Shown here piece after piece: positions 14,071-63,780 of a stretch of 64,000 nucleotides of DNA. The stretch comes from Watersipora subatra (taxonomy: Eukaryota; Bryozoa; Gymnolaemata; Cheilostomatida; Watersiporidae): the NCBI RefSeq assembly GCF_963576615.1, contig NC_088708.1, positions 68,344,672 through 68,408,671 on the forward strand, given 5' to 3'. The first letter of the stretch is position 1. Each line of letters opens with the position of its first letter. The translations under genes were made by a program, and so were the position numbers. The notes under the pieces were generated by a model that saw nothing but the letters and a program-made list of their open reading frames with translations, ran no database searches and was not told the origin of the DNA.

Positions 14071-17000
14071 TTAATAATTGTAGTTACTATAGTTCCTAAA
14101 AAGAAAGTAGAGTACAATCACATCAAAGGCAAATGATACAAAGGCGCATAGGGCAAAGGGCTTCATAGGAATACAGAAACAACAAGGGAGACTACGAAAG
14201 GCAGCAAAAAGAAGGGAACATATGAAAATGGTGAAAGTCAAAAAGAGGGGGAGGAAAGATGGTGAGAATAAATCACGGTAAGTGGTCGAGTAAAAAAAGG
14301 TAGATAAATCGCACCCTTGCTGCTGATAGCCTTGTTGAGGCTGTTGGTATCCTTGTTGAGGCTGTTGTTGCTGCCAACTACCATCTCCACCACCCCACTG
14401 CTGCTGTTGTTGACCCCATTGCTGACCTTGGCCCCATTGCTGCTGCCCCCACTGTTGCTGTTGGCCCCATGGCTGTTGCTGTCCCCATTGTTGAAAGTTA
14501 TTGTTTGCTCCCCAGTTGGCAGCCTGAAAATTAATAAGCACTTTTTTAAAGAACATCATGGCAAACTTATATCAGTTTTTGTGAAGCAGATTTATATATA
14601 AAAGCTAATTGTTCAACGTAGCAAGTTTGCCACCTTTTTTTAATTTTGAGGCAACCAGTTTCGCAAGAAAAAAAATCCTACAGATTTGCAGTCATTTTTA
14701 TCTTTGAATTGATTATTCAATACGCAAGTAGAGCGCTCAATACTGCTATCGACTTGATTGAATTTTTGTTAGTGCTGATATTAAACTAACTTCATGCTAC
14801 TATAAGAATGTGATAATGTTCTACGATGAAATTGTTTGGTTAATATACTGCCTGGTGTTTTTGAACTCTGCATTGCTCACTCTCCAGTTTTTGCTAATCC
14901 AAGTTTGTATATAAACTTTAATGAACTTAAAGGTTGACTTGCAACAAAATTCACATTAAAGTTTTTTGGTATTAAAAGATTTACCATGTCTTACTCTGTT
15001 GTGTTGTATGTAGGTGCAAAATATGTGGAAATGTGATTACAAGTTCTTGAAAGCTCAAAGACAAAAAGCCACCGTAGATTTGAATCAGTTTATTTCTCTG
15101 ACGTTGTCATTACATTTGGTCATTGTTTTGTCACGCGATGTTCTCACGTGAATTGAAAGGCCAATACAAGGCTCAATATAAAACTTCTCATAGCACTATT
15201 TTATGACAAACACTTCGAGTTTTACCGAAGATCCCGTATCAAATATAGATGCTCGCTGCTTTACAGTTGTTTCGGCTTGGTCTAATCGTCTAGTAGTAAT
15301 CTGATCATGTGACCCATACATCGAAAATAATTTCTGCAGCATTTTTCGATTATCACAGGTGACCAACAGGGTCGTCATGTTTATCAGACAACGATATGTA
15401 CTCCTTCGAGCTAAGGTTAAAAAATTAAACGAATTTTTATGGTAAGTTATAAGATATCAGTGCTGAAAGTGACAGCATTACAATGACGATAAAATAGATG
15501 CGTAAGAACAATAGACATGGTTTTATTGAATGCATGAAATATATTTGTGAAAATATTTTGACGAATCAGGTTGCGCGAAAGTATAAACAGAAGCCATCTC
15601 TCTTGTACAACTACATACCATTTGAGCCATTTTGGAAAGAGATTCTAATCTACGGCGGTCTCGTGATAGCGGCGATTAACTGTTCGTTTTTGAGCTTTTA
15701 AGAGCTTGTAATCACATTTCTACATATTTTGCACCTACAATACAGCAGAGTAAGACATGTGAATCTTTTGATACCAAATAACTGTAATGTGAATTTTGTT
15801 GCAAGTCAACCTTTAAAGATGCAGTTCAAATGTTGGGGAAAACTCAAGTCGTGTCAAGTGAAAGACAATATACTAGAAGTGCGTAAAGTTTCAGTTCATT
15901 AGAATGGTCTACCGTAGCCCATATTCGCTCCATTTAGCTTTATACTATTTCAATTATCGGCGAAGCCTTGCGAATATTTGCCATACCTAGAAATGCATGA
16001 CAAATAATTTAGTACATGATCTGAATGCTTTTGCTTAGATGACATCCTTCTCAAATAAAGATTACATGCATTCTCATGTTCTCAGCATAGTTTTCATTAA
16101 TTTCATCAGCAGAGCAATTAATTACACGGAGTTAGTTGTTTTGTTTTTGGCTTCATTTTTGTTTGACTAATGGAATTAAAACCTGGGCTTCCGCAAAAGT
16201 CATTAGTTGAATATACAATTTAGAATAGTATGTGGAATTGCAATCATAACACCCAAATGTTTTCAAACTATTAATTTTAAAATCATTTGAGCCACATACA
16301 AATTTTTTGGCAAGTTTTTAAAATATTCTAACATTTTGTTATCATGTTCGAAGCAGATGTTGACAAGAAATATTAAAAGTTATCTACTTATTGGTCAATC
16401 AGTAAGCACACAAATAAATTTCCTGAGTTAGCCTAGAAAACTAGGAAAGAAAGCTATACATTCACACGAAAAAACACAGAATGAAGTGAGGTCCAAACCT
16501 GCTGCGCGACCTGCTGGGTACTCTGTGGCTGACCCATGCCCTGGCTATTATAGCTCTGCTGCATCGCGCCATTGTTAGAGCCCATTCCAGGCACAAAAGC
16601 GTCACTCGACTCCTTGCCCCAGGAACAACGTACTGTGTATCCTCCAATTTCTGAGCCATTCAACCCAACAATGGCCTGGGCGGCGGATTCCTTTGAATTA
16701 AGTCTATAAAATAAAATTCCATGATCAGGTATTTACAACACAAAGAAATTGTAAAACTATAATCAGTTTATGAAGTCCCATACAAGACGCAAAAGTCAGT
16801 CACAAAAACAACCATAAAACAAGAATACACATATTACGATTCTGATTATATAGAAGTTTGCTAAGAGAAAATCACTCGAAAAAGAAACCAATTGAAAGTT
16901 ACCAAAAAACCTCTGTTTGAACGGCGCCTTTATTTGACTGCCGCCTTTATTTGATCGTCACCTCCATTTGATCGCCACCTTGAGATTCTTTGATCATTAT

Positions 17001-20000: not shown

Positions 20001-23000
20001 TATCATTGACCTGATACTACGTTGGTGAAAGTAAAAAAACATCCTGCCTGAATGATTACGTGTTCTCAATTTGTTCAACCCTCATGATCACACAAAGCTC
20101 CCTGCTAGTGCTGTAACAAAGCAAGTTGAGTCGAATGAACTTGGTACATTCTACAGCATGATTTACTGCATTTAGGATTTTGCTCATGCGGAGATGTAAG
20201 ACAGATTTGAGCAGCGCCAAAGGACATGTTTTTGGTCAAAAAAACTTTTAGCGATAAAAAGACTCCCCAATAATAACAAGATTAACAAATTGAATATTAA
20301 AACTGTCTTATAGCTGATTTCTGCATCGCCTTTGGTTTAGCTTTTTATCGTTATGCCATCATGAAAACCTAGAATCTTGAAGACTAATAAAGTGATGTAA
20401 TCAATCATCAAATAATTTAAGCACATTTGTTATTGCGCAAAAGTGAGTTTTTGCTTTGAATGGAGAAACTATGCAAGAGTAAGACATCAGGCAAGCATGG
20501 GCCAGCAATGATGAGATGCGTTGAATGAAAATACACATAAAAAATAAAGAATACAACTAATATTGTGTCTTAAACAAACAGAATCCGCATGAACACTGTT
20601 CACACTACTAATCAGAAACGAACAACTTTCATGGCTCGTTAACTCCACACAACGAAGATGACCACTGAATAACGTGCATGTTTCTAAACCATTGAACAAA
20701 CTAAAACAGAATATTATCCAGTGCTACCTCTAACCTCACAAAAGCAAAGCCTTTATCCGCGAAACACCTGATCTCAGCAATGGGTCCATACTGTTCAAAG
20801 TGGGGACTGAGCAGGTCATCTAAAACAAGCAATGGTGGCAGGCATGTAGTGTAGGTGCCAGAATTGAGATAGGATTCATGAGTTTGTGGGTGACCATGCT
20901 AATAACATACAAACTATGCTACCAAATAGAGCATTATTAAAGGTTGACTTGCAACAAAATTCACATTACAGTTATTTGGTATCAAAAGCTTCACCATGTC
21001 TTACTCTGCTGTGTTGTAGGTGCAAAATATGTGGAAATGTGATTAAAAGCTCTTAAAAGCTCAAAAACAAACAGTTCACCGCAGCCATCACGAAAACGCC
21101 GTATTATCAGAATCCTTTTCCAAAACGGCTCAAATGGGACGTAGATGAACACGACGGCTTATGTTTACATTTTCATGCAAACTCATTCGTAGAATATTTT
21201 CATAAATATACTTCAGGCTTTCAATAAAACCATGTCTATTGTCATTACGCGTCTATTTCATCATCATCGTAATGCTGTCACTTTGAGCACTGATATCTCA
21301 AAGCCTACCATAAAAATTCGTTTAATTTCTTAACCTTAGCTTGAAGGAGTGCATATCATTCTCTGATAAACATGAGGAGCCTATTGGTAACCTGTGATAG
21401 TCGAAAAATGCTGCAGAAATTATTCACTCTGTTTGGCAGGAAGTATGGTTCACATGATCAGATTACGACTAGATGAATAGACCAAGCCGAAACAAAACAT
21501 TAAAGTAGCGAGCATCTGTTTTTGATGCGCGCTTTTTGGTAGAACCCGAAGTATTGTCACAAACTAGTGCTAAGACATTTTATATTGAGCCTTTTATTTC
21601 ATGTGATAACATTACGTGTCAAAACAGCATTTTAAAAGAATTTTAGTAGCAAACCATAAAAGCGAAAAATGTATTTAATCTCTTGGTAATTCAAGAAACT
21701 TGCAACATTTTGGCGTGGTTACTATGTTATACAAATGTATACCTGTATACTGCTACTAGATGGGATTTTCAGTGTTGTGACATTTACATAGCATTAGCTT
21801 TGCAATATGTAATAGACCGTAGATATGGTAATTTCCGTTAATAATACAGTCATACTTCGACTTACGAGCATAATGCGTTCCGAGACTGAGCTCGTATGTC
21901 AATTTACTCGCATGTTGGTGCAATTTATTTATATATAGAACAATTATATATATTGATTGGTTTCCATACTCTAAAAAATGCAAATAATACACTCAAAACA
22001 AGATATTGTAACAGAAAGAACATGTTGGTTATTGTCCCAACTTACCACATGCTTTCAAGAAGCAACAAATAAGAAATAATGCAAGGAAATGTGATAAATT
22101 AAAATGTAAAATTAAATACATACAGTAGCAGCTAAGTGCTAAAGCTAGCATTTGCCAGGGAGGGATATATAAGTGTTATCCTTCATTACAACAGTTGAAT
22201 TTGATAAATTTGGATTTTATCAGTCTTGAAAAACAAACTTATAAGCAAACCTAAAAGCAAACTTTCATTTTTAACTTAACGTAATTAAAATTTCTTCGGC
22301 GTTCATAGTTTGAAGTTTCTCGCTGGTTAGCTAATTTTTCCTTTGTTTCGATTTCATGACTAGCCGGCCGTTTTAAGACAAACCTATCTAAGGACGTTTG
22401 CCTTTGTCGCCCTTTCAACATGTTGCGATTAGGACGAACACTGGTGTCATCACAAAGGATTAATGCACGACTCCTAGTCAACTTGTCCGAAAGTCAATTT
22501 TTTTGTTTTGATAGATAGCACCGGCCTTTTCACATAGGTCTTTTCGCCTTTTCACCACCGGCCTTTTCGCCTTTATTGAAACATCGTTTCAGTTACGCTG
22601 TCACCGACCAATTGTTTATCTTTTATCCAATGCCGGAGCAGTCTCTCCATCAGCGGTCGTGAAGATCGCTGTGCCGTTGAGAAACTATGGTTAGTCCTTT
22701 TGCGAACTAAATGCCCTGAATATAATCCTGTTTGATAATTGTGGATGTATTTCTGTCATATTGCTGAGCTAGCTCAATCACGCATACACATTTCGCATAT
22801 TTTTCAATAATTTTCCGTTTAATATCAATCTTTCCATTATCTTTCATTTTACTGGCAAACTTTCGGTCTACGCACCGTACTTTTAATTCACATAATTCTG
22901 CACTGAAAATCGCGCACAAAAAAACACAGTACAAAAGTATAACCTGAGCAGTTGAAAAATACAGAGTGATGCTGTTCTCATAAAACACCTCCGGCATACT

Positions 23001-26000
23001 TGGCAACTGACTCACGTGCTCGTATCTCAAACATGGCTCGTATGTTAGTGCTAAAACTTGCTTAAAAGCTGGCTCGTATCTCAAGTTTCTCATACGTTGG
23101 AGCACTCGTAAGTTGAAGTATTACTGTAGATTGACGTTTCATTCAATCGACACGAAACAGAAGTGCAAAAACCAACTACTAAACTTAATTGGATTAGAAA
23201 AATAAGGAGCTAGAGAATTTAAGGTGATCATACTCTGTTTAAGTGTGGTTGTCACAACATATAAATTTCAAGCCCTTGTTTATCTTGGCACTGGATAAAA
23301 AAAGTGAAGATAAGCGACAAGTAAATTGCAGAATCAGAAATTGTGCTAAAAACAGCTGATGCCAACCTTGTAATCCCTCCTGGATGCCACCAATATAGAC
23401 TGTGGTATTAGTAGCAGAGGCCTGTGCGAACACATCATTGTAGTTGAGTTTCTGGGGTTGACGTTGTCTCCCTCGTTCTACTGGTGCCGGAGGCTTACGA
23501 GTTGCCCAATTTGTCCTAATCGCCCGACTCCCTAGCCATGCCCCATTCATTTCATTTATAGCACGCTGAGCATCCTACAGCAGCAATAGCATAGATCCAA
23601 ATAGCCCGTGAATACATGAAATATTTTCAGCATTCACCAAACAAGTCTATTATACAACAAGCACTCAAATATTATGGCTTGAAAACAATTATTATTTTTA
23701 AATGACTAGGTTTACACTTTTTAATGGTTCATTAAGACATACATTTAACCACTGCCGAAGAGGCCTACCTGGCACTTATCACCTACCATTTTGTAACTCC
23801 GCTACCTTAAGTATTACTGCGATTTGTCGACCAATGCGCATGGTACGAAATTGGAATCCACACGTCGCATACAGTCAAACTCGGATAACTCACCCTCGGA
23901 TAGCTCGAATACATGGTTAACTCGAACGGATTTGTTTGGTTCGTTCCCGCGCAATGATAAATTGCTGTAAATAACTCGAACTCAACTTCGTTAACTCGAA
24001 CAGTTTTCTGCCCAACGGCTACTGAGACGGTTATTATAGCTTTAGAATATCCAACCTATAAAGATAAACCTCAACTTTTCGTAGTTCTTAGGCATTGTTA
24101 TTACCATCATCGGCAAAAGATTTTCGTTAATGACTTTTCTAAGGGTTTGCAAAAAGTCAAATTTTACCAAACATCCGCTTAGCGATGGTTCTTCGAAAGC
24201 AAGGAAAAGCGAGGTAACCTTCTCATAAACTTTAAAAAAAATCGGCAAAATTGATCTTGGTTAAAACGCTCAAAAAAAGATGTCTTTTTTTCAGAGCATT
24301 TCAACAGCAATCAAGTTTTGCCAATTTTAATCTGAAAACGTCCTGGCAGTCACATCACCTAAAATAACAAACAAATCTCAACTGATAGAAAAATCTCTAT
24401 ACTTTCTGATAAAAATTTTTTAAACTTTACATTAGAAGCTTTTTAATTTGCAACAAGCCACCTATGCTTTTGATTTATATTATAGTATGTATATGTACAT
24501 GTATCTACTAATAAATAAATAAATGGACTTGTGACAGTGCTCTGATAACCTGAACGCTCTGATAACTCGAACACTTTCGTGCGGTCCCGTGAAGTTTGAG
24601 TTATCCGAGTTTGCCTGTACATAGCAACTACAGACGAGGAACGAGCAAGCACCTTTGACGAAAATCCAGGTGACACGCTAGTACACTTACCTCTTTGTTT
24701 ATAAATGATATGAATCCATAGCCTTTACTTTTGCCAGATGCCAAATCACATATAACCTTGCAGTCACTACAGAATGCAATGTAATGGTTAGGCAAAAAAG
24801 GCATGTGGAAAAACTGTTTTTATATATGAGCTACAAACAGAAAATGATTGATAGAGACATTGTAAGTTGCTATTATATAGTTAAATACGAGTAGATATAT
24901 TTCTGTCTTAGCACAAACATGATAACATATCATATTTCTCATAAGGATCGGAGACAATATGCAAAACCAACACAAGATAAAAACAGGAAGACAGTCAAAG
25001 GTCATACCAAAAGCAGGCTAAAAGCTTATACTTAATTGTTGTCATAAACTTACGATATTTCACCGAATGCATGGAATGCTTCCCGCAGTTGCTTTGTCTC
25101 TATATCGGAACTAAGATCTCCACAAAATATGTGAAAATGATCTACAACACGCAAAAACAAAGTTGTGAATATCTAACAGCAACATACAAGCATGACAAAA
25201 ACAATCTTACAAAAAATGTCATGTATGACTACGTTAATATAACATGTTCACCTCTCAGTAGGACCACCTGAATCTGACTAACAGGCCAGCCACCGGCTAA
25301 CACCACATCAGCGGATATGATTAAATGACATTAGATTTTCCAACAAAAAATGCTGTTGCTATGTGGTTACCAAGCATAACAAGCATTATGACTTGTTTGT
25401 GAACAAGCTAATGCAGGTTATTTCCGTATAGTAGCAAACATTTTAGCATGTAAAACAAGCTGCTGACATGAACAAGTATACCAAACATCAGCAGAAAGAG
25501 CTAAAATCATCTGTTCAACGAGCGAGACCTAAACATCCATTACACAGTCTATGAATTTTCCTAGCAAAATACATACAAAACCGATTTGGTAACATATGGC
25601 AGCATAATAGTTAAAAAAATACATTTACTGTACCTCGAGAGATGGTGAAGTCACTTTGAACTTAACATTCCTAAAGACTCAAAAATAGCATCAGACTTAC
25701 TATAAACATTAATTTAACACAGACATGTAATTACTGAGCTGAACCTACCGCTAGTGTCTACTCTGCCTCGTGCCATCTCTTGAGAGTTCTTCGAATTTGG
25801 AGAAGTAGCCCAGTTAACCTTGATCGCCTAAGCAACAATAAAACAAATTATGGTTCACAAGGAAAGAAAGTCAACATCGCGCTTATTCATTCAGAGAACG
25901 AAGCTCAGCAATATAAAAATAAGTTTGTATGTAAGTTACCTTTCCCATCACTTCCCGACCATTCATAGTTGCCAAAGCATTTGAAGCTGACTGATGATCT

Positions 26001-35100: not shown

Positions 35101-38100
35101 ATATATGTGCATGTATATATATATAGGCCTATATATTTATTACTTTATTGGCAATAATTTAATTTAAAATGAAAACTTTTTTTCAAATTATGCAATACAA
35201 TAATAATAAAACAAAAAAGTAAAATCATAAAGCTTTTATTCAAGCTATTTTGTCTATTACTTCTAATTGTTTTTTTAACTTAACGTTGACGCTTAAATTA
35301 CAGGGAACACAAAAACCGGTACATGTGGCTCCAGGTTACATCTTGTCTAGAAGCAAGAGCAAATATCAGATGTTAATACGTGACAAGCTGTTTGAGCTGC
35401 AGGATGCGCGAGCGAAGGAGAATCATGGCCAGGATGTCCTTAAACCAGAGATGTAAGTGTTGTTATTGTTCAAAAGTGTCATTATGGCACCTGTCACGAG
35501 ACAGTCAACTTGTGGCATTTGTCAGGGGATGATTGCATGTGTCATTACATTATGACACTTTTCAAAAGATGGTCTCATGCGGTTTTAAATTTGGGCACAT
35601 TAGGACATGGTCACATGTTTTATTTCATGACGACACCTTCACAACACTGTCACAAATATCTGTAAAAGAAATGAGTTGGCTGCTTAGCTATTCAGTGGTT
35701 TTAGTAGATTTAACAAAATTTAATTGAATTTCTCAATTTATTCTTTTCAGAGTTTATTTATGCTCTGCTCTCAAATATTTTTATGTATTTCCTACCGTTC
35801 TATATTTTCATCTACCTCCATCCTGGACTATTTGCAATCAAAATACTGATGTGAAGTGTTTAGCACAAATTTGTGTCCAAGGTTAGTTTCGCCTCAATGG
35901 GCCTTGCTTTTACTGGATTTCAGTATTGCTTGCATGGGAGCTTGGGTCAGATGGCTAATGTGTTTTTCTAGGCTGCAACATGACACATGGAATTCTGATG
36001 AAATGTCACAGCCAGTGCTTATTATTTTATGGCAGACTATAGAAGATGATGAGAAATGTGTTCATTAATCTTCTTTTATTAGCGAATTTTTTCTTTGATG
36101 TTTTAAGAGAGCAGTTGGTGAACAGTTTAAAAGAACAAGTTGCTGATCTGAGTCTACATTTGGAAGAAGAAAGAATGAACCATAGAGATACCAAACGTAA
36201 AGTAAGTACCAGAGAGATTCCAAGCATAAGGTAAGTCCCATAGAAATACCAAACGAAAGGTAATACTCATAGAGGCACCAAATGTTATGTAGGTTCAATA
36301 GAAGTACCAAATGTAAGGTAACTTCCATAAAGATACCAAACATAAGGTAAGTCATATAGGGATACCCGACATAAGGTAAGTCTCATAGAGCTACCAAACA
36401 TAAGGTAGGTCCCCTAGAGATACCAAACATAAGGTAAGTTCTCATAGAGATACTAAACGTACGGTAATGCCCATAGATGTACCAAATGTAAGGTAAGTCC
36501 CATAGAGATACCAGACATAAGGTAAGTCGCATAGAGCTACCAAACATAAGGTAAGCCCCATAGAGATACCAAACGTAAGGTTAGTCTCATTGAGATACCT
36601 AACGTAAGGTAAGTCCCATAGAAATATCAGACAAGGTAAGTCTCGTAGAGCTACCAAACATAAGGTAAGTCCTATAGAGATACCAAACATAAGGTAAGTT
36701 CTCATAGAGATACTAAACGTATGGTAATGCCCATAGATGTACCAAATGTAAGGTAAGTCCCATAGAGATACCAGACATAAGGTAAGTCTCATAGAGCTAC
36801 CAAACATAAGGTAAGTCCCATAGAGATACCAAACATACGGTAAGGCCCATAGAGGTAATAAATGTGCAGTAAATCCTATTATAGAGATACCAAGCGTATG
36901 GTAAGTCCACTTGTAATTCTTTACAATAGCTGATGTTCAATTAATTATGGTAGTAGTTTTATTAGTCACAGACTGCTGTGTTTACATGATGAATCAATAA
37001 TGCATATTTAAAATCAGTAATGCATCTAATGTGTGGTCTGTTACATTGACAATTTTGGCAGTTTCCAAAATTGTTTGTTCTGGCCACAAAAGAAAATTAG
37101 AAGAATTGTCCTGGCCACAAGAATTATTGTTGACAGAAAAGCTTTGTCTCAAGTGAAAAACCTTTGTTTTAATAGTAGTTTTTATTGAAATATCAAGATG
37201 CGTTATTTATCTAAATTGTGAGAAATTCTTATGAAGAATATTTGATAAGTAAATTATTCCTTTCTGAGTCCAGAGTAACGTTGGGTATTTCTACTGGTCA
37301 TTCATAAAATATGAATAATCTATGAATAAATAATCTATGGTAAATAATCTATGAATTCTCTTTGATAGTTCCCTTTTAGCTCAGTTCATGTGCCTTGATT
37401 AAAACAAGACAAGTTGTGATCCTTGACACAGTGCCCTCAGCACATTTATCTGATGGCCTTTCGGAATTTATGTGTGTATGAATGGAGACTGCGTCCAGGC
37501 AGAGCTAGCCGTGTTGTTACGAACTCACACGTGACTGCGTGTAACCTTACTTATCAATAAGAAAAGAGAGAGGGTTTATGAAATTCTTAGGCTGAGGAGT
37601 TTATGCAAGACAAAGTTGATGAAATGAGAAGAGATCAGAAAGAAGCCTTGAGACGACTGAGCGATGAACACAAGCAGTTCACGGAGAGCGCTGTCGCCGA
37701 CCATCAACAGGAGCTACAAACTCAGCAGGATTCCTATGAGGCTATAATAGGTAACTTTCTACAAGCCTTCATATATTATTTCTTCTAGGATGCTTGCTTT
37801 GTGGGTTGCTGATACATAACGAGCTGATCAATGACTTTTACTTTTTGAGCCAAAACCAAACTGTTTTTTTTTACCAATTGGCAACAGCGATCACATAATG
37901 TTGTACAACTATTCTGGTTGGCTGCAGCAAAACACCGGACAGAGATGGCTTTTCTCCAGGGTGCATTCGAGTCATACAAAAGTCAGCGTGATGCCGAGCA
38001 CCGAGAAGCTCTAACCAAGCTGCAGGAAGAATCCGAGCGAAATCAGAGTGAAGTTTTACAGAGCCATCTCCAGGAACTTGGTACTTCTATATTTTATAAG

Positions 38101-41100
38101 TCTTTCCATGATTTAGTTTCGCCAGTTTTGGTAGAACGACCTCTTCGCTAGAAACACCTGAGACGTTTCAAATGTAACTCCACCAATAAAACTCAGTAGA
38201 GTGATTTGCTAAATAAGGGAAACTGCTTTTAGAAACGAAACCCTAGTATTAGGTAGTAGTAGGCTCAAGTATTGCATTAGAAAGGTTCGTTAGTCAGCCA
38301 TACTCCTAAAAGAAGCATTAGTTGCGGGTGAACACCTTTGATTGATTTGGTGTGGCCGACTCATAAAATATATTATTACTAAACGTAGAGTTTTGTTATT
38401 ACTAAATGTTACTCTGATTACTAGCTGAGGTTCTTTATTAGTAAGTTATTTAGGAGTTACTTACTGTAGGTTATTTAACAGTTACTTATTGTAAGTTATT
38501 TAACAGTTACTTATTGTAAGTTATTTAAGATTTGCTTACTGTAAGTTACTTAAGAGTTACTTACTGTAAGTTACTCAAGGGTTACTTACTGTAAGTTACT
38601 TAAAGGTTACTTACTGTATGTTACTTAAGAGTTACTTACTGTAAGTTATTTAAGAGTTGCTTGCTGTAAGTTACTTAAGAGTTACTTACTGTAAGTTACT
38701 TAAGAGTTACTTACTGTAAGTTATTTAAGAGTTGGTTGCTGTAAGTTACTTAAGAGTTACTTACTGTAAGTTACTTAAGGGTTACTTACTGTAAGTTACT
38801 TAAGAGTTACTTACTGTAAGTTACTTAAGAGATAAAAGCTCTTGTTACGTGACAGCCATGACATGTCACTTTGAAATGTCATTTCTTGTCAGCTATGACA
38901 TGTCACTATCATAACATTTAAGCCACTATATCTCATAACTGATCCATTTATTACTATTTTTTAATTAAATATGCTTTCACTTTCTTTCTACATGTTTTTA
39001 TTTAGCTTCTCGCATCAGTAACAATGCGAGTGTTTAGTCAGCATATATTTACAGAAAGACAACGCCAAATATATATTTGGCAAACCCTAAAGTCGTAAAA
39101 GCTCTGCCCTTGTTGGCATTGTAAATACGTTGTAGTTTTTAGCAGATTTTAAAAATTTTTATTTCACGATTTACTGGATGAAAATCTTACAATTACATCA
39201 ACATATCCATGGCTAAACTCAGGCTGCGCAGAGTATGAGCACAACTACAATATCTAATAAGAATTGATTGATGAGTGAAAATTTTTAGCAAAGCTCAGTC
39301 GAAGTATTTCATAGCCTAAGTTTATCGGTATCTCATCAACCTTGTTATCTGTACACTACAACTTTAGTGTCTTGCCTGCCACACAGTCTAAAGCGCAGGT
39401 CAGATGAGTGTAAACAAATATCTGACTCTCAATCCTACTTCAGGAAAGAAATTGACGAATGATAAGACTGCTGCTCTAGCTGCACAAGCAAGAGAACACA
39501 ACAAGGCCATAATGAGCTTGGAGAAGCAATCAAGCCGAGAGCTAGAGGTACAAGTGTAACAGTCACATTGAACACGTGTCACTGAATTATAGCAGTGCAA
39601 TGAGCCTCTGTTGTTTAGTTGAGAAATGGGCAAGAATAATTTTTATGTCATTCGCTCACGATATCTTCATTCAGTCATGTTGAAAAATATTTCAAAAACA
39701 ACTTTTCATCACAAATATTCTGTATGTGTTCTTGCTGTAGGCTCTAAACAGACGGTTCGCCAATCACGCAGCTGATATACGTAAACTAAAGGAAGCCGAA
39801 AATGAAAAAGAGGTATGGTCGTCTTATAAGTTTCAACTATGCATTTTTTTAGTAGACCAAATATTGGATAGTGAGACGTAGAGCTTGCTTCTGCTATTGG
39901 GCCATCGAATTATCTTACGTGTTCTCTTGTGTGAAGAATAGTGAGGGCCAGCAGTGATAGAGCTGGTTACATTATAGGAGTTGACAGAGAAGTGTGATCA
40001 CATGTGCCAGAGGATCGGAGGCCTCGAGAAAGAGTTAGCCAATGTTAAGAGAGATCGAGCTGAATACGTAAGTACAAAAATTGACCCGCTTGTCAAATGC
40101 TCAATTGGAAACAAAAAATGTTTTTCATTGGTAATTATGTTGCTTCTTTTGGATCTATATATATAAATCTAAGTGTTTGTTCGTCCCACGACCAAACACG
40201 AGCGAAGCGAATGTTTGGGAGCTTTATGATAAATGCATATGTGCACACAACTCCCGAAAAATTATTCGTCAACGTCCGTTACCAAACCCTTGTACAATAA
40301 TCCCATCAAAAAATTTAACCATTTTTGTGTAGAGTCATTTAAGTATAATAATGATACAAAACACATATAAACATATTTAAATATGTTACCAAGTCTTTGA
40401 AATGTTTCTGCAATATCCTAAAACTAACCCATCTGATCAGATTATACATAAATAGACAGATTAATTTGGTCTAAAATTGCGATAAAAACTTGAACAGCTT
40501 TTTTTAATCAAAACTAAGACCGGTCAATGAAACGTCAATAAGGCCGTGCGACAAATAGTAGAACTATTAAGTTGTGCGCATTTCACCAGAAAAACGTGTA
40601 CATTTCACCAGTCTATAGCATTGTTTAATTGCCGAAGGTTTCTGTAATTAACGTAAAAGTACTGAAAAGTAATCGCTTCTTTTTTGCCGTTTCTACCAGA
40701 CTCTGACATTTTAGACACTTATAATGAGTACTTTGGTATTTCAACTGATGTCCAAAGCAGTGAAAGTAAAGGAAATGACGTTGATGTTTTTCTAACGATT
40801 CTAACAATATTTAATTATAAGAATAATTATTTGGTTTTATAAGATTATTATAAGATTTAGTTGTAAGAATATTCATTCGAATTTACAAGATCGAAGTATA
40901 TAGTGACCGATGGTGTGCAATATGTTACTGTTATTATTTTTCTAAAGATCTTGTTGATGATACTACGGCTGTGTCCAATATAGCGGTACTGCCAAGCCAT
41001 TTTTAATATCTGCAAAATTAAGTAATAGGCCTACATTTTCTTATAGATATATATCTAGTTCTATGACGACCAGCTAAAATCTGTTTAGATTTTTAAATTC

Positions 41101-44100
41101 AGCATAATTTTTTAGATATAAATACAGAAATCTATATAAATATCACTTCTTGATATTGGTTGCTATGACCAATGATATCAACCCCTCGCCCAGCCTGTGT
41201 ATATTACACAGCATCTTGCCATTTTACTTCTAATATTGCATTTCTCCTATTGCAGGGAGAGATATAAACATATAATCTTTTCCTTTCATTATTGCTGTTT
41301 GCTGTACATAATAACACCCAGTACATTACAGTTATCATTGCAGCTACCATTGCAGTTCTCCTATTGCACTGCACTGCCATTTGACTGCGAATATTGCATT
41401 TCTCAACCGGCAGTACCCGTTCTTTTTCCATTATCACTTTGGCCGTGGGCTGTATGACAGGGGAATTTCTAGTCTATCTTAAGCCTGGTTTCCATATGAT
41501 AGCGCAATGATCGTGCGCGGCCTAGTGATTGTGGGCAATGCATTTCTTGGGCTGCGACGCAGTGTTTCCATAGCGCATGTAGGCGCCATGCTTGCATTGG
41601 GCAGGATGGGAAATTTCCTTACTTTTTCGTACGGGAGACCGATTTCTTCGGAAAACAGCCCTCCGTTGCGACCTTGCGCTGTCATAGGAAAACCAGGCTT
41701 ACTCTTTCGTATGGGAGACCGATTTCTTCGGAAAACAGCTCTTCGTTTGAATTGTAGAATTGGTTGAATAGGTCAAGCGGTGTATTGTGGGATACATCAT
41801 CACGTGCACCCGTCGCAAGGATCCATTCTGTTGGATCCTTGGGATCAGCGTACGCACATCGGGCGATCGTCGTGTGTTGACTGTTCCACATCACAGCTGA
41901 CCTACGCACGACATCGTGCACCTTGTTGCGCGCCTTGCGCTGTCATATGGAAACCAGGCTTTATGTCCGGTTTATGGTGATTGGTTAAAATACGCAGCTT
42001 GCAGTGTTTGAACTACTAGAAGCAAGCTTGAGCTACTAGAAAGAAATACATGCCTAGACTTCCCAAAAAACAATGCTTTTCCGATACAGTCCGATGCGTC
42101 ATTAGAGAGTATGTGTAATGATTATATGCACAATTATTCCCAAGTATGGCAAGGTGTCTGCATGGTTTATTGGTAGTACGCTTGGCTTTACACCCGTGCA
42201 TCGGAATGTGTGGGTTCGATTGCCACGAGGAGCAATGTTTTTTCTTAACACCCAGACGGAAGGGCGGATACAGCACTTACTATAGTAAAGGTTTAGACTA
42301 GCTTCTGTTACTCAAATTTATTGGGTAAAGAAACTTAGCGAATGGCAACTACATGAGCTGCCATTGTTTATAAGCTGGGTTAAATCTTGAGCGAATCTGT
42401 AGCATTAGCAGTAAAAAATATTATTCAACAATCTGTTTTATCTTGAGCTTTCAAATATTTGAATTATGCAATGGCCGGACACACAGAAATCAACAAACAC
42501 CTTCATTTAGAGACTAAATGGTCAATGATGTATATGTTGATTAAAGATAAATGTTTTGCGCAAAAACTTTTTATTACTCGTGCAACGCCGAGCATTCTGA
42601 GAGTTTTTTACCACTTGTACATACAAGCATTTTTTACTTACATTTGCTGTTTTTCTAACATTTCTATCTGAAATCTATATGAAGATTTGCATTGTAGCAA
42701 TTCCTTTTTAAATTAAATACTTGCTGTAAAAGTTGGCATCTATTCACAAAGCATTGCACATAAACAGCGGTATGTTTTTAAAGCAGAAATGTATTATCTC
42801 AGTTAAATAGATGGTTAGATTAATGCTAAGAAGAACTATCTTTGCTCAAAGGAAAAAAGTAACATTTTTAAATTTATCAGTTTTGCTTTTAAAGATTTTT
42901 ATGACGAGACTGGAGTATTGATATTTTTGGAAATTAGCATTATACGGCGCATAGTCCACCATATTTAGTAGAAAGTTTTAAATGATTATTTGAGGTAGCC
43001 GCTTTTTATCATCAGCATCTGCTAAGATCATCGCGTTGCACATCTTATTATTTCTGCGTTATTATTACTGTTCTGTTATTACTATGACTATTATTACTGT
43101 TCTGTTATTACTATGACTATTATTACTGTTCTGTTATTACTATGACTATTATTACTGTTCTGTTATTACTATGACTATTATTACTGTTCTGTTATTACTA
43201 TTACTATTATTACTGTTCTGTTATTACTATGACTATTATTACTGTTCTGTTATTACTATTACTATTATTACTGTTCTGTTATTACTATGACTATTATTAC
43301 TGTTCTGTTATTACTATTACTATTATTACTGTTCTGTTATTACTATGACTATTATTACTGTTCTGTTATTACTATGACTATTATTACTGTTCTGTTATTA
43401 CTATTACTATTATTACTGTTCTGTTATTACTATGACTATTATTACTGTTCTGTTATTACTATGACTATTATTACTGTTCTGTTATTACTATTACTATTAT
43501 TACTGTTCTGTTATTACTATGACTATTATTACTGTTCTGTTATTACTATTACTATTATTACTGTTCTGTTATTACTATGACTATTATTACTGTTCTGTTA
43601 TTACTATTACTATTATTACTGTTCTGTTATTACTATGACTATTATTACTGTTCTGTTATTACTATTACTATTATTACTGTTCTGTTATTACTATTACTAT
43701 TATTACTGTTCTGTTATTACTATGACTATTATTACTGTTCTGTTATTACTATGACTATTATTACTGTTCTGTTATTACTATTACTATTATTACTGTTCTG
43801 TTATTACTATGACTATTATTACTGTTCTGTTATTACTATGACTATTATTACTGTTCTGTTATTACTATTACTATTATTGCTGTTCTACTATTACTATTAT
43901 TACTGTTTTACTATTATTACTGTTCTACTATTACTATTATTACTGTTCTGTTATTACTATGACTATTATTACTGTTCTGTTATTACTATTATTACTGTTT
44001 TACTATTACTATTATTACTGTTCTACTATTACTATTCCGCAATACTATTTTGTTAAAAACTGACTCTGAGAAAGAAAAGCGCTCTTGCTAGCAAATCAAA

Positions 44101-46043: not shown

Positions 46044-47015
46044 AAAACATTTACGTGCTAGCAATCTCCAATGTTTTATAGTTATATCTATCTGTATCAC
46101 ACACAAAATAGACATTAGGATATCGCTGTTATGACAGGGCATTTTAAAATACTGCTTAAATTCTTATTGGCTGTTGCCATTCTACTACAGGACATTTCAT
46201 GGACCAGCCAGCGTGCGCACAAGTCAGATTGCACCATCTTGAACCAGTCAAACAAACTTTCCATGACATTAGCTGATTTAACTCTGGTATTGTACCAGTA
46301 TATGAAGAACAAATTCTTGTCAATACTTTTTGTATTATACTTTATGCATCTTTAAAAGCCAAAAATATTTTATAAATTACATACATTTTTTCATGCTAAT
46401 GTTAAATTCTCAACTCTATTTCTGTATTATTCTATTTTTATGATATATTGTCTTTTTTATTTATAGAAAACTACATAGTTACAGGGCAATGGAATTTCCT
46501 TCAGTAGATTTGCAGACCCAACAATAACAAATGGCTATGATGTCAGAGCGCTATTTCGCAGTCATCATGTTGGAGTGTTATTTGGCAGTCAGCCAACTTG
46601 GTTACGCGGTTTTATACGTCGTTGCCAGTTGCTTGCATCTCACCTATTGTTGTTACCAAGCCGTGTAACTCAAGTCTGTTTACTGTAGTTTGCCGTGGAC
46701 GTGTACTAGCACTTCCTAATGACTAAAAATCCTGATTCATTGTTTTAACGAGTTTGAATCTTTCTCACGCTGATAGCGCTAAAGCTTTCTAAAATCAATG
46801 GCCAGACAAACACATTATTTTGAAGTCTTTGTCAACACATTATAGCTCAGAGATGATTGATGTAGAAATCCCTCTGAGCCCCTTACAAAGCGTGATTAGG
46901 GGTGGATTAGCCGTTACCCCGTTAGTCTAAGGCAGACCACTGGGCATACGTAGAACAAAGCAATTCTGAAGTGAGTGCAGTCTGGGTGAATCAATCGACT
47001 GCTAGAGGAGGGAAC
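46044..47015. other. Intergenic between the coiled-coil gene and QNG1
   Basis: This contains the 3' UTR of the first gene and the promoter/leader of the second, both in the same direction. No repeat family or sure regulatory motif was recognised. Confidence 0.4.
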
Positions 47016-48038
47016 ATGCCGGACGCACTAGGACCACGTGAATCTGCACAGATTATTAGCAACAATAGTCGTTATGTTACGATTTCTCCCGATGCCATCA
47101 ACGTGATGTCTGGAGATTTGCTTGAGGAAATCAGAAGAAATCCGGAATATATCCACTTTAAAGGATGGAAAGCTCACGCCCTTAATCCAAAGACTTGTGA
47201 TGATAGAGCAGTCAATTGGATATTTCTTGTGGATGCGTTAAACTTCTCATTTTGGAGCTCGGACAGCGATAAAAAATACTGCGTGAGCTACAAAGGAAAG
47301 ACTTACACTGGCTACTGGTCAATGTGCGCGGCCATAAACAGGGCAATTGATGAGGGGATACCTATAACCTCAGCTCTTTATTGTAAGGAGTTAAGTTTGA
47401 AGGAAGCGAGGCGAGTCTTTCGTTCTGACAGTGAGACAGACCTACCCATGCTTGAGCAGAGAGTAAAGGTAATGAACGATATAGGAACAGTCCTTCTCAG
47501 CAAGTATGACGGGAAATTCACCAACTGTATCCTACAAGCTGTCGGAAATGCACAGATGTTGCTAGCGAGTGTCGTGAAATCTTTTCCTTGTTTTAAAGAT
47601 GAAGGAGTTTTTAATGGAAAAAATGTTTCTTTCTACAAACGCGCACAAATATTAGTGGCTGATATATGGGCATGCTTTGAAGGGAATGGCCTCGGTAACT
47701 TCTCGGACATTGACAGTATCACCATGTTCGCCGACTACAGGATCCCTCAAACGTTGGTTTACTTCGGAGTTATGCGATATGAGAATGAACTGCTCGAGTT
47801 GCTAGAAGCGGATCACCTTTTTGAGAATGGCGACCTCATGGAAATGGAAATAAGGGGGGTATCTGTGTGGGCTGTTGAACTTTTGGTGAAGCGAATGAAG
47901 GAACTGCTTAAAGAAAATTCTATAGAAATAAAAATAAATGCCATCCTACTAGATCACTTTCTCTGGGATTACCGACGCGAGCATGAGGCTGAGACGAAGC
48001 ACATACCATTTCACAAAGTGCGCTGCATATACTATTGA
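47016..48038 (+). CDS. QNG1: Queuosine 5'-phosphate N-glycosidase/hydrolase (QNG1, formerly C9orf64/DUF2419), intronless
   Basis: A single uninterrupted 340-residue frame, almost the length of human QNG1 (341). The family releases the base queuine from queuosine 5'-monophosphate so that it can be reused for tRNA modification. Family landmarks in order: VNWIFLVDALNFSFW (66-80), YKGKTYTGYWSMCAAINRA (92-110), KRAQILVADIWACF (208-221), MFADYRIPQTLVYFGVM (237-253), LWDYRRE (316-322) and the C-terminal RCIYY. The Asp of WDYR (Asp318) is the probable catalytic acid of the family. I chose ATG 47016 (MPDALGPRES); the frame is open upstream to a GTG at 46971, but there is no earlier ATG. It follows the coiled-coil gene and converges with the UBALD gene. 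The lack of introns is odd among its neighbours. Confidence 0.95.
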   Translation: MPDALGPRESAQIISNNSRYVTISPDAINVMSGDLLEEIRRNPEYIHFKGWKAHALNPKTCDDRAVNWIFLVDALNFSFWSSDSDKKYCVSYKGKTYTGYWSMCAAINRAIDEGIPITSALYCKELSLKEARRVFRSDSETDLPMLEQRVKVMNDIGTVLLSKYDGKFTNCILQAVGNAQMLLASVVKSFPCFKDEGVFNGKNVSFYKRAQILVADIWACFEGNGLGNFSDIDSITMFADYRIPQTLVYFGVMRYENELLELLEADHLFENGDLMEMEIRGVSVWAVELLVKRMKELLKENSIEIKINAILLDHFLWDYRREHEAETKHIPFHKVRCIYY

Positions 48039-58463: not shown

Positions 58464-61400
58464 ATGGGACAGAGGCTAACTAGCATGCTTCCTCAACGGG
58501 AAGCTGAAGGTGTGCAAGAGGTGTCAATTGCCAGTAGCAATGCTTACAAGTGGCCTCCAAAATCAGGTATCCATTGAATCTTAGTTAATCGGTCTTCTGT
58601 TTGTATCAGAGTGTGTTCTAGGTAGGTGAAGGTTTGGCTGTCAGAAAGCTTTGCTATCTTTCAAAATCTTTACAGATGTTTTTTGTCTGACAATGATTCG
58701 CTAAAAGAATTGAAATCTGCAGAAAAGTAAGCTGTTCAAAGAAACTCCTATGTTCAAAACCAGGTTGACTTTTGTAGCTACTAGACTTATAAGAATGCTG
58801 TTACACGGCGTCCTTATTGTACTATATATATACAGTAATACTTCAACTTACCAGTGCTCCAGCGTACGAGAAACTTGAGATACGAGCCAGCTTTTAAGCA
58901 CGGTTTAGCACTAACATACGAGCCATGTTTGAGATACGAGCACGTGAGTCAGTTGCCAAGTATGCTGGAGGTGTTTTATGAGAACAGCATCACTCTGTAT
59001 TTTTCAACTGCTCAGGTTATACTTTTGTACCGTGTTTTTTGGGCGCGATTTTTAGTGCAGAATTATGTGAATTAAAAGTAACGTGCGTTGATCGAAAGTT
59101 TGCGAGTAAAATGAAAGATAATGCAAAGAAAAAGCGAATGATAACAGTTGATATTAAACGGAAAATTATTGAAAAATATGCGAAATGTGTATGCATGATT
59201 GAGCTAGCTCAGCAATATGACAGAAATACATCCACAATTATCAAACAGAATGAATATAGTCAGGGCATTTAGTTCGCAAGACTAACCATAGTTTCTAAAC
59301 GGCGCAACGATCTTCGCCACCGCTGATGGAGAGACTGCTCAGGCATTGGATAAAAGATAAACAATTGGCCGGTGACAGCGTAACTGAAACGATGTTTCAA
59401 TAAAGGCGAAAAGGTCGGTGGTTAAAAGGCGAAAAGGCCTATGTGAAAAGGCCGGTGCTATCCATAAAAATTATAAAAATTAATAGACTTTCGGACATGT
59501 TGGCTAGTGGTCGTGCATTAAACCTTTGTGACGACACCTGTGTTCGTCCTAATCGCAACATGTTTAAAGGGCGACAAAGGCCAACGTCCTTAGATAGGTT
59601 TATCTGAAAACGGCCGGCTAGTCGTGAAAGCGAAACCAAGGAAAAATTAGCTAACCAGCGAGAAACTTCTAACTACGAACGCCGAAGCAATTTTAATTAC
59701 GTAAAGTTAAAAATGAAAGTTTGCTTTTAGGTTTGCTTCCAAGATTGTTTTTTAAGACATTGATAAAATCAAAATTTATCAAAGTCAACTGTTGTAATGA
59801 AGGATAACTTATCTCCCTCCCTGGCAAATGCTAGCGTTAGCTGCTATTGTATGTATTTAATTTTACATTTTAATTAATCACATTTCCTTGCATTATTTTT
59901 TATTTGTTGCTTTTTGACAGCATATGGTAAGTTAGGACAATAACCAACATGTTCTTTCTGTTACAATATCTGGTTTTGAGTGTTTTATTTACATTTTTTA
60001 GAGTATGGAAACCAATCAATATATATTTAATTGTTCTATATATAAATAAATTGCACCAACATGCGAGTAAATCAACATACGAGCTCAGTCTCGGAACGCA
60101 TTAAGCTCGTAAGTCGAAGCATGACTGTATGTATATATATGTTGTTCTTTTGTAAAAAAAAATTTGGAGAACAAGGCTAATGGCCTATTAAGCCTGGTTT
60201 CCATATACGCCGCAAAGCACCGGCGACAGCAGTGCAGACTATCAGCGGTGAAATGTGAACCTACCCGCCGAGTACTACCGGTAGTTACTGTCGGTCTACG
60301 CAAGAGTTTGGCGCTGTTCAAATTTTGCGAAGAGCCACAGGCAAAACCTTCCCGCAATTCACTGTACAGGTGAAGGTCACCATTATTGAAACGGTATGGC
60401 GAGTGAACATTTTTATGCGGTTATTAGCGATGCAGCTTTATGTGAACAGAAGCCGCCTAGTGTCGCAAGCGTTTTGCTGCGCAATATAACCGCCAGGTCT
60501 CGCAATTGATATGGGAACCAGGCTTTACTAAGATTTCTCTTTTGTTTGATTTTCCAATTCTTTTTTAAATTCATTAGTCTGTGAAATGATCAATTTTTTT
60601 TCAAGTTTTTTTAGCCATTTTGACAACAAAAATTATGGGAAGTGTTTTTTAAGAGTTTTGAAAGTAAGAAATCTTAAATTTGTAGTTATACAGTTCACCT
60701 TTCAGTGAGTTATTTCAGTTTTTAGTCATACATAAGTTTCTATAATAGTCTCTGGAATGTTTCATCAGTTGTGACGCTGAAAATCATTTAGAGCGTTACC
60801 CAAGTATTATAAAAAAGGTAGGTACATGTAATTATTTTAATTATATGAATAGGTTTGAGCAGTTATTAAATTTTTTATTTTGACTTCCGGCACTCCTCTT
60901 TCCTACACACAAATTTCTATACTCTGCTCTCAAATTGATCAAGATTATTTGCGTTTCGTATGTAGTTTTTGGGAAAACTTATGTCAAGTGTTTATAAAGT
61001 ACAGTCATACTTCAACTTACGAACTTAATGCGTTCCGAGACTGAGCTCGTATGTCAATTTACTCGCATGTTGGTGCAATTTATTTATATATAGAACAATT
61101 ATATATATTGATTGGTTTCCATACTCTAAAAAAAGCAAATAAAACACTCAAAACAAGATATTGTAACAGAAAGAACATGTTGGTTATTGTCCTTACGTAC
61201 TACATGCTTTCAAAAAGCAACAAATAAAAAATAATGCAAGAAAATGTGATTAATTAAAATGTAAAATTAAATACATACAATAGGAGTTAACACTCACATT
61301 TGCCAGGGAGGGAGATATAAGTTATCCTTCGTTACAACAGTTGACTTTGATAAATTTAGATTTTATCAAAGTGTTAAAAGACAAACTTAGAAGCAAACCT

Positions 61401-63780
61401 AAAAGCAAACTTTCGTTTTCAACTAAACGTAATTAAAATTTCTTCGGTGTTCATAGTTTGAAGTTTCTCGCTGGTTAGCGAGAAATTTTTCCTTTTTTTT
61501 TCGCTTTCACGACTAGCCGGCCGTTTTAAAATAAACCTAACTAAGGACGTTTGCCTTTGTCGCCTTTGCAACATGTTGCGATTAGGACGAACACAGGTGT
61601 CGTCACAAATGGTTAATGCACGACCACTAGCCAGCTTGTCCGAATGTCTATTAAACAGTTTGGATAAATAGCGCCGGCCTTTTCACATAGCATCGTTTCA
61701 GTTACGCTGTCACCGGCCAATTGTTTGTCCAATGCCATCAGCGGTCGTGAAGATCGCGGCACCGTTTAGAAACTATGGTTAGTCCTTTTGCGAACTAAAT
61801 GCCCTGAATATAATCCTTCTGTTTGATAATTATGAATTTCTGTATTTCTGTCATATATTGCCAAGCTAGCTCAATCATGCATACACATTTCGCATATTTT
61901 TCCGTTTAATATCAATTGTTATCATTTGCTTTTTCTTTGTATTATCTTTCATTTTACTGGCAAACTTTTGGTCTACTCACAGTACGTTTAATTCACATAA
62001 TTCTGCACAGAAAATCGTGCACAAAAACACGGTACAACAGTATAACCTGAGCAGTTGAAAAATACAGAGTGATGCTGTTCTCATAAAACACCTCCAGCAT
62101 ACTTGGCAACTGACTCAAGTGCTCGTATCTCAAACATGGCTCGTATGTTAGTGCTGAAACTTGCTTAAAAGCTGGCTCGTATCTCAAGTTTCTCGTACGT
62201 TGGAGCACTCGTAAGTTGAAGTATTACTGTATTGTAAAGAAGAAATCGTCAATTTATAGTTACTTCAGTTAGTCTTTGGAGAGATATTTAATTTTTCATT
62301 GGTTGTGATGAATTTTTATACCCAGCTCTCAAATTCTTTAAAATTTTACATTTTTCCTCTCAAGATTGACTATAAAATTTGTGAAGAGATGTTAAAGCTT
62401 TCTAAAAAGGAAAACCTTTCTAAAGCCTTTGAAACCTTTGGAAAAGCTTTCTAAAAGGAATTTTCAGTTATTGAAGTGGGTTTGCGACAAGGTAGCTAAT
62501 TTTTTGTTCTACAGTTAGTTTTCGTTTAATGATGATAATATGGTCATTTAAATAATTTGTCACCTAAATTCTTTCCAGAAACACCAGTGATAAATGAATT
62601 CATCGTTGAATAAATCTCATGATTTTAAAAACTAAGGTTAGATTATTTTGTCATCATTTGGCTATATGGCATCTTTTAATTTTTTTCTCTTATACATTGG
62701 CTACTCTTTACCTACTCTTTTTATAAGTGTCATCGCTATCATAAGCAAGGCACAGAAATTGTTGTAAGTTCAGTTGAACTAATGTTTTGATGTGATGTTG
62801 TATCATGAAAAATACAATTTTGTCAGTATTAGCTGAACACATTTCATTGTGCTTCATGTTAGTGCTTTATGAGGCATACTTGAACTCAAAACATTTGCTA
62901 GAGATAGTTATTGGTTACAGAGTGAAGATAACAAAAACTAAGGTTTCAATCAAGTATACAATGTAGCATTATTATATACCCTAGGACATTTATATTTCGC
63001 TAGCATCTAGTTTCGTGAGTAGCATACAGAGTAAAATTTCGCTGCAACTTAATTTCACATCTCTGATGAGTGCGAAAATATAGTGATGTGAAAATAAATG
63101 CAATGGAACAAGCATAATTAGATTCCTCAGGTTCAGTTTACCTATAAAAAAAAATTTCAATTTAGGACTAGTTTGTAATTGTGAACCGCAGGTAGAATGG
63201 TGTGGGCGAGATCGATAATGCAATTTGATCGCTTGCTGCCATTTGTTTTTTGGACTATCAATGAACAAAGCTATTTAATTTCGCATTTTCGCTCGTTCGT
63301 TATGATAGTTTAGTTTCGCACATGAAACTTTCGTGAGAGGATGACTCCGCGAAAGTTAGATGAGGCGAATACATAAGTGTCCTAGGGTACGTAGTACACA
63401 AATTAAAAACATCCTGAATCTGAAGCGTATTGTGGTAAATACGCGACAGCTAGGATTTGCCGGTATGAGTAACTTTGTTTCCATTAAAGATACTATTTCT
63501 AGGTAGGACATGCTTGAAAATTGCGTATATGTGGAGTTGTTCGAGCGGACCTTTAGCACAGAGTGGATTCGAATGTCTCAAAATAGTTGAGTAGAGAGCT
63601 GATCATTTTTCAATACGCATTCATGCCATAGCATTTGTACTGTCTGGACTGTATGATGTAGGAAATTATTTTGGAAGTCATTTCATTATGGGAGGAGAGC
63701 GATTTGATAGCCAACCACCAGAAGCATTTTTATTTGGAGAAAACTCGGACCTTAACTTCCTCGGCAATCGTCCAATGCCG
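58464..63780 (+). CDS. MGRN1: E3 ubiquitin ligase MGRN1/RNF157, first two coding exons (continues off window)
   Basis: Exon 1 is 58464-58566 and exon 2 is 63662-63780; both end in good donors and join in phase 1. The 74 residues seen begin MGQRLTS. The segment AYKWPPKSG leads into NYFGSHFIMGGERFD and FGENSDLNFLGNRPMP, the highly conserved start of mahogunin-type ligases. Gly2 with Thr6 fits an N-myristoylation signal. The RING domain lies downstream, outside the window. Intron 1 (5.1 kb) holds two inverted Tigger copies and a TTA-flanked MITE. MGRN1 and RNF157 cannot be separated from this part. Confidence 0.93.
58831..60129 (+). mobile_element. Tigger/pogo-like element, family A, copy 2
   Basis: TA-flanked, with ends CAGTAATACTTCAACTTACC and the inverse of CAGTCATGCTTCGACTTACG. 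On the plus strand, 58854-59272 encodes the N-terminal frames (MLQRTRNLRYEP; then, with a frame break, [20 protein letters not shown] and the helix-turn-helix). The C-terminal tail is near 59560-59730 (RQRPTSLDRF-like), with no catalytic core between. It lies in intron 1 of the MGRN1-like gene. Confidence 0.87.
60188..60527. mobile_element. MITE with TTA target duplication, copy 2
   Basis: The ends AGCCTGGTTTCCATAT and ATGGGAACCAGGCT are flanked by TTA (60188-60190 and 60525-60527). It is 340 bp with a GC-richer interior unlike copy 1, so only the ends are shared. Confidence 0.8.
61000..62231 (-). mobile_element. Tigger/pogo-like element, family A, copy 3
   Basis: TA-flanked, with ends CAGTCATACTTCAACTTACG and the inverse of CAGTAATACTTCAACTTACG. 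It has the same internal deletion form as copies 1 and 2. The N-terminal frame ([14 protein letters not shown]) is at 62208-61993 on the minus strand. It points opposite to copy 2, 870 bp away, in the same intron. Confidence 0.87.

Follow-up and report, generated by a model that had tools for sequence, protein, structure and literature searches.

Within a 64,000-nucleotide stretch of the genome of the bryozoan Watersipora subatra (contig NC_088708.1, positions 68,344,672 to 68,408,671 of the forward strand; hereafter the window, from whose first letter coordinates are counted), the end of exon 5 of a coiled-coil gene and the splice donor that follows it form the first unit of a 29-bp minisatellite. 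Wrap-around alignment places the array at 36181-36908 on the forward strand and resolves it into 25 tandem units, the first of which spans the exon-intron junction. Arrangements of this kind are known from lancelets as "mirages", and the assignment of the array to them is well supported. We consider it probable that the array arose as a by-product of tandem duplication at a junction and is tolerated; this explanation is the best supported because comparable arrays lie at six other coding donors and one coding acceptor of the same genome, and because of the lancelet precedent. What is new is how common such junction arrays appear to be in this genome (784 Mb).

Unit 1 consists of CATAGAGATACCAAACGTAAA, the last 21 nt of the coding exon, followed by GTAAGTAC, the first 8 nt of the intron, and each unit of the head-to-tail row holds this combination of exon-end and intron-start sequence. 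Splice signals recur in many of them: GT is present in 25 of 25 units and GTAAGT in 15, the true donor included, all on the forward strand and none on the other. A preliminary description of the window had placed the end of exon 5 and its donor in unit 1 of a 29-bp minisatellite of about 25 units, some 15 of them with GTAAGT, and both the alignment and the counts agree. Tandem Repeats Finder (TRF) reports the array at 36180-36854, with a period of 29 bp and 23.3 copies. Of the word AAGGTAAGT the array holds 13 copies, and neither strand of the window has any outside it.

The 24 downstream units share a mean pairwise identity of 0.79. In a lag-9 comparison units 8-13 (36384-36558) recur nine units on as units 17-22 (36644-36818) with 93-100% identity, forming a higher-order repeat on the forward strand that is matched by a 260-bp period also reported by TRF. 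The near-unchanged recurrence of six units points to recent growth of the array. That the units differ and that units 8-13 recur at this lag speaks against an assembly artefact, and the observation of the array is confirmed. A genome DNA search, in which very common words were skipped, found no second copy of the array unit. A dispersed repeat family was rejected: four of the five other DNA matches (loci L002-L005) were scanned and proved to be minisatellites with other periods, and the remaining one, L006, overlaps L002. No relatives were found in viral contigs.

The exon at the junction is a 94-nt coding exon (36108-36201, +), recognised by its splice sites and frame and found again by a genome protein search. 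It starts at codon position 3 and ends on a codon boundary (peptide end MNHRDTKRK), where it meets the true donor AAA/GTAAGT (36202-36207, +; the slash marks the boundary). From this donor the join to the next exon (37591-37750, +) is in frame, and nine exons give 440 stop-free codons with a stop at 46043; the protein is partial, the annotation starting at 35304. Donor 1 is the sole donor among the array's 25 that keeps this frame, and the phases of the nine exons fit none of the other 24. Every forward-strand frame hits stops inside the first units. The preliminary description had predicted that reading past donor 1 would meet a stop in unit 2 and that use of a downstream donor would truncate the protein. 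This stop, a TAA codon, was verified, and truncation follows for 24 of the 24 downstream GTs, through a frame shift at donor 2 and through the TAA at the other 23. From the frame we infer that donor 1 is the one used in the cell.

Intron 5 is 1389 bp long. With a possible gain of the intron by tandem duplication of an AGGT segment in mind, its acceptors were surveyed by a simple criterion (70% pyrimidines before AG); candidates lie only from 37268 onward, none of them inside the array. No Pfam family above the cut-off and no PDB match gave the coiled-coil gene a name, and a genome protein search found no second gene copy or paralogue lacking the array with which to polarise the -1 base of the donor. 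A 164-codon open frame on the reverse strand (36442-36936) covers much of the array and is probably a by-product of the repeat.

While donor 1 keeps the frame, it is not the strongest of the row. Its AAA/GTAAGT is weaker than the AAG/GTAAGT of many copies: its duplex with U1 comes to -7.0 kcal/mol, and better pairing is predicted for 17 of the 24 downstream copies, 13 of these at -10.6 kcal/mol. The energies were computed with human U1 RNA, to which the first 14 nt of the genome's own U1 genes (two genes read) are identical. At least 42 U1 small nuclear RNA genes, all on contig C5, form a tandem cluster at C5:45786606-45984104. The last codon of exon 5 could be AAG with the protein unchanged. 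As 17 of the 24 copies are stronger, U1 pairing cannot be what selects donor 1; provided that the gene is functional, the choice must rest on position or exon signals.

We suggest that a tandem duplication happened to span the exon-intron junction and then grew into a minisatellite. The extra copies would sit downstream of donor 1, and would thus be intronic and tolerated as long as donor 1 is used. Copies altering the protein would have been removed by selection, leaving one exonic copy and then a long intronic row. Donor 1 probably prevails despite its weaker U1 pairing because the acceptor of the short upstream exon, together with exonic signals, defines that exon. We infer both the origin by slippage or unequal exchange and this reason for the success of donor 1. 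The pattern of substitutions within the array fits a passenger: the mean minority fraction is 0.102 in the donor nonamer and 0.139 in the rest of the unit, which is no significant gain in conservation (P = 0.68).

The position of the array at a junction is, taken alone, not very surprising. The host gene carries three minisatellites, which occupy about one fifth of its annotated part. When they were placed at random, 6.8% of trials had at least one of them starting 1-29 nt ahead of a donor, and 84% had some junction covered. The second minisatellite (38441-38831, +) has a GTAAGT-bearing 25-bp unit; it belongs to a later intron, where 360 bp separate it from the donor, and is not a junction array. 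A strand-specific donor role for it found no support, as GTAAGT occurs 14 times but ACTTAC also 10 times. The third (43060-44040, +) has a different 29-bp unit and stops about 80 bp before the exon at 44120; TRF ends it at 43989, the end at 44040 being read from the sequence.

In lancelets (Branchiostoma), tandem repeats that span an exon-intron boundary have been described in Adh3, troponin C, globin and PGBD5 under the name mirages; the parts of these reports consulted state that many copies bear splice signals, that repeat number is unstable, that regular splicing is undisturbed, and that the globin cases include both acceptors and donors (PMC3087553, PMC3902484). The array of the window resembles those described there in spanning a junction and in bearing splice signals in many copies. 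What sets it apart is that the units number 25, at 29 bp per unit, and that most copies surpass the true donor in strength, and the genome-wide excess of donor words reported below is not mentioned in those parts of the lancelet accounts.

Two human systems are also comparable. Turri et al. are said to have described in 1995 a minisatellite of human IFI6 that supplies multiple splice donor sites. The IFI6 repeat unit is 12 bp long and therefore keeps the frame. According to the portion of the source consulted, two downstream repeat units of IFI6 (6-16) act as donors and yield three mRNAs (PMC4526556). The minisatellite of the window likewise offers multiple donors, but with its 29-bp unit no downstream donor preserves the frame. 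Minisatellite expansion at exon-intron boundaries has also been found to alter gene structure in human paralogues within segmental duplications, where novel introns were proposed, as far as the excerpt goes (PMC2812944). In the bryozoan, unlike in the recent primate paralogues of that excerpt, no second gene copy was found and the exon keeps its frame.

To place the array among others, 22 distinct donor-word arrays of the genome were inspected, 12 of AAGGTAAGT, 8 of GAGGTAAGT and 2 others (contig C1, loci L042-L090 plus L041). L083, whose array fills the fetched stretch, is excluded from this number; for L083-L090 the 5' side was fetched, and one pass was made over the other strand, which added L085. 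Seven of the 22 lie on coding splice junctions, six at donors and one at an acceptor, their exons backed by Pfam or PDB matches that vary in strength. The remaining 15 have no recognisable coding junction. They include L088, where the array lies about 100 bp past a likely donor, and L084, where a likely exon on the opposite strand follows about 45 bp after the array. At L060, also among the 22, degenerate repeats continue upstream, so the start of the array is approximate.

The six donor arrays differ in how much of the exon they repeat and in how firmly the exon is identified. At a RhoGAP exon (L081; Pfam 52 bits) only the donor and intron start are repeated, with no exon sequence. At a CUB exon (L090; Pfam 42.8 bits) 31 of the last 35 exonic nucleotides recur in the next unit, and at a nitrilase exon (L087; Pfam 24.8 bits, PDB NIT2 E = 3e-12) about 41 exonic nucleotides are repeated. 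The copies are more diverged at a myosin heavy chain exon (L086; PDB E = 3e-9), with 19 of 40 positions alike at the best shift near one unit. A nuclear-receptor-like exon (L068) is weakly identified, with a PDB match of E = 0.05 over the whole exon and no Pfam match. The sixth array, of 34-bp units (L041; C1:1753000-1757500, -), lies in a gene that we take to be FAM135-like; only its next exon matches DUF676, at a sub-threshold E of 0.002 to 0.005. An adjacent intron of this gene also holds a minisatellite, with 37-bp units starting about 16 bp after the donor.

The single acceptor array has a 42-bp unit and lies at a glycine dehydrogenase exon (L085; C1:22283900-22284480, on the reverse strand, opposite to the donor word; Pfam 34.1 bits, PDB E = 1e-5). 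Its acceptor, with TTTGATATTTACAG before and GATACAATGCTC after the boundary, is repeated together with the exon start in the next two units, with 46 of 50 and 44 of 50 nucleotides alike, making it the acceptor-side counterpart of the donor array in the window. The periods of the seven donor arrays (29 in the window, and 34, 23, 26, 44, 44 and 41) are all indivisible by three, unlike that of the acceptor array (42). A weak true donor was rejected as a general rule of such arrays: stronger copies number 17 of 24 in the window, and the FAM135-like array has 10 of 11, but there is none among the 10 copies (4 equal) of the nuclear-receptor-like array and none among the 6 of the RhoGAP array.

Tandem donor words are in excess across the genome. 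Counting three tandem copies at 16-47 bp spacing genome-wide, we obtained 773 matches for AAGGTAAGT versus 22 for the reversed word, 3735 versus 270 for AGGTAAGT and 316 versus 75 for GAGGTAAGT. Composition-matched nine-letter controls for AAGGTAAGT gave 169 (GATGAAGTA; reverse 274) and 94 (AATGGAGTA; reverse 95), and the raw count of GAGGTAAGT is only slightly above that of the control word ATGAAGTAG (274). Raw counts are inflated by long arrays, and distinct arrays were counted by eye. AAGGTAAGT has 12 among the matches listed, which cover the first 56.38 Mb of C1 (about 0.21 per Mb), and GAGGTAAGT has 9 in the whole of C1, 79.35 Mb (about 0.11 per Mb); the matches listed for AGGTAAGT reach C1:4.24 Mb. 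The control GATGAAGTA has 3 on C1, one of them a palindromic place and not a proper array (about 0.04 per Mb), and AATGGAGTA has 9 in the entire genome (about 0.01 per Mb). Donor-word arrays are thus 3- to 18-fold denser than arrays of the two composition-matched control words. Part of this excess may come from real donors acting as seeds, the counts not being scaled to the frequency of the single-copy words. No genome-wide count of donor minisatellites was found in the open-licence literature by title or abstract start.

Could the downstream donors instead have a function? If they were used conditionally, truncated and decay-prone transcripts might tune the gene. That 17 of the 24 pair better with U1, that all 24 truncate the protein, and that IFI6 uses two downstream repeat donors to make three mRNAs, as the portion consulted states (PMC4526556), speak for such regulation. 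We nevertheless regard it as unlikely: the donor nonamer shows no significant extra conservation, the lancelet cases splice normally in the parts of the reports consulted (PMC3087553, PMC3902484), and two of the three other junction arrays tested have no copy stronger than the true donor. A further suggestion, that the array is a landing strip for U1 which guards the transcript from premature cleavage and polyadenylation or else sequesters U1, draws on the abundance of strong U1 sites in an intron of 1389 bp that carries AATAAA/ATTAAA at 36857, 37325 and 37398, and on the genome-wide excess of donor words in arrays. So short an intron needs little protection, however, and the lack of significant extra conservation in the donor nonamer argues against this role too, which we consider highly improbable. 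Sequestration of U1 small nuclear ribonucleoprotein, raised in the preliminary description, is implausible and was rejected on numbers, a transcript offering at most 25 sites in a genome with 42 U1 genes or more. A change of donor choice, also suggested there, would truncate the protein whichever downstream donor were used. That description is right in its anatomy and in the logic of truncation, and of its three suggestions a by-product origin is the best supported.

RNA structure was considered as a means by which donor 1 might be singled out. On this view the copies would be closed by folding on themselves, GGUA pairing with UACC, and donor 1, which has A in place of G at -1, would be the only one left open. 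Local folding favours this strongly: donor 1 is the most open of the 25 donors in three set-ups and in five set-ups of a second run, one of the latter giving 0.27 versus a median of 0.006; an in silico switch of its -1 base from A to G lowers the value from 0.27 to 0.0045 and so closes it, and just 2.4% of 589 other GT nonamers in the gene are equally open or more. In one global fold, however, openness reaches 0.61 elsewhere in the row and exceeds that of donor 1 (mean 0.57 per base), and even with the opening cost included 13-17 of the 24 copies still bind U1 better. The real unit falls only in the lowest 10% against shuffled spacers and the lowest 15% against random ones, and the true donors of three other junction arrays rank low in openness, at 12/12, 9/11 and 6/7. 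The explanation failed in these last arrays and in the global fold, and it is very unlikely to account for donor choice. The least probable of the alternatives is an assembly artefact or a wrong exon boundary. Tandem arrays are often misassembled, and one lancelet mirage was aberrantly assembled in a draft, according to the part of the report seen (PMC3087553), but the differences between units and the comparable arrays at seven other coding junctions argue for a real array, and the stops in all forward frames within the first units, with nine-exon phases that fit donor 1 and 0 of the 24 others, argue for the boundary.

Three observations weigh against a pure passenger. The use of donor 1 is not accounted for by U1 strength, as 17 of 24 copies pair better. 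The GT columns are invariant in all 25 units, with P = 0.00065 for this pair if all 92 substitutions fall evenly and independently; but the copies have a common history, and a hand calculation based on the number of distinct derived states (43 over 29 columns, none of them in GT) puts the chance at about 5%. As a sign of selection the invariance is weak. Finally, the donor-word excess across the genome, together with the 15 of 22 arrays off recognisable coding junctions, is not predicted by this model. Selection on the donors was rejected, given that the nonamer is not significantly better conserved (P = 0.68) though GT never varies, and neither it nor a U1 sink nor a general masking by RNA structure has good support. 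With the array of the window still read as a tolerated by-product, we tentatively entertain the possibility, which we hold to be less than even, that splice junctions are favoured seeds of minisatellites in this genome, or donor words favoured contents of them. Junctions might be prone to tandem duplication, or U1-binding arrays in introns might be kept.

The remainder of the window holds several other features. A 370-codon open frame at 46926-48038 (+) matches the queuosine salvage protein family (Pfam Q_salvage, PF10343; E = 3.5e-119). On the reverse strand an exon at 23239-23574 matches TIA-1 (PDB 2mjn, E = 2e-18), and further pieces were assigned by eye at 16454-16732 and 14071-14571 (-). 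TIA-1 helps U1 to bind weak donors. Open frames at 58839-59272 (+), 61993-62223 (-) and 22707-23120 (-) are mutually related and resemble what we take to be pieces of a Tigger/pogo-type transposase; a Pfam search with one putative piece (58982-59269) gave no match. At 434-682 (-) a 39-bp repeat array holds an open frame of 13-residue repeats (MYDVIYSNLPQIQ).

In summary, the array of the window is a natural competition test in which a weak donor faces 24 copies, 17 of them predicted to be stronger for U1, and in which the protein is lost unless the first donor is chosen. Donor arrays on the ends of coding exons number at least seven in this genome, the window's and six others, and form a series on which rules of donor choice such as position, exon length, U1 strength and structure could be compared. 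The excess of donor words in tandem raises the separate question of where minisatellites are born. If junctions or donor words are indeed favoured, many genes of this bryozoan would carry rows of decoy splice sites, the array described here would be one of a large class, and some of these arrays may tune splicing or transcript stability.
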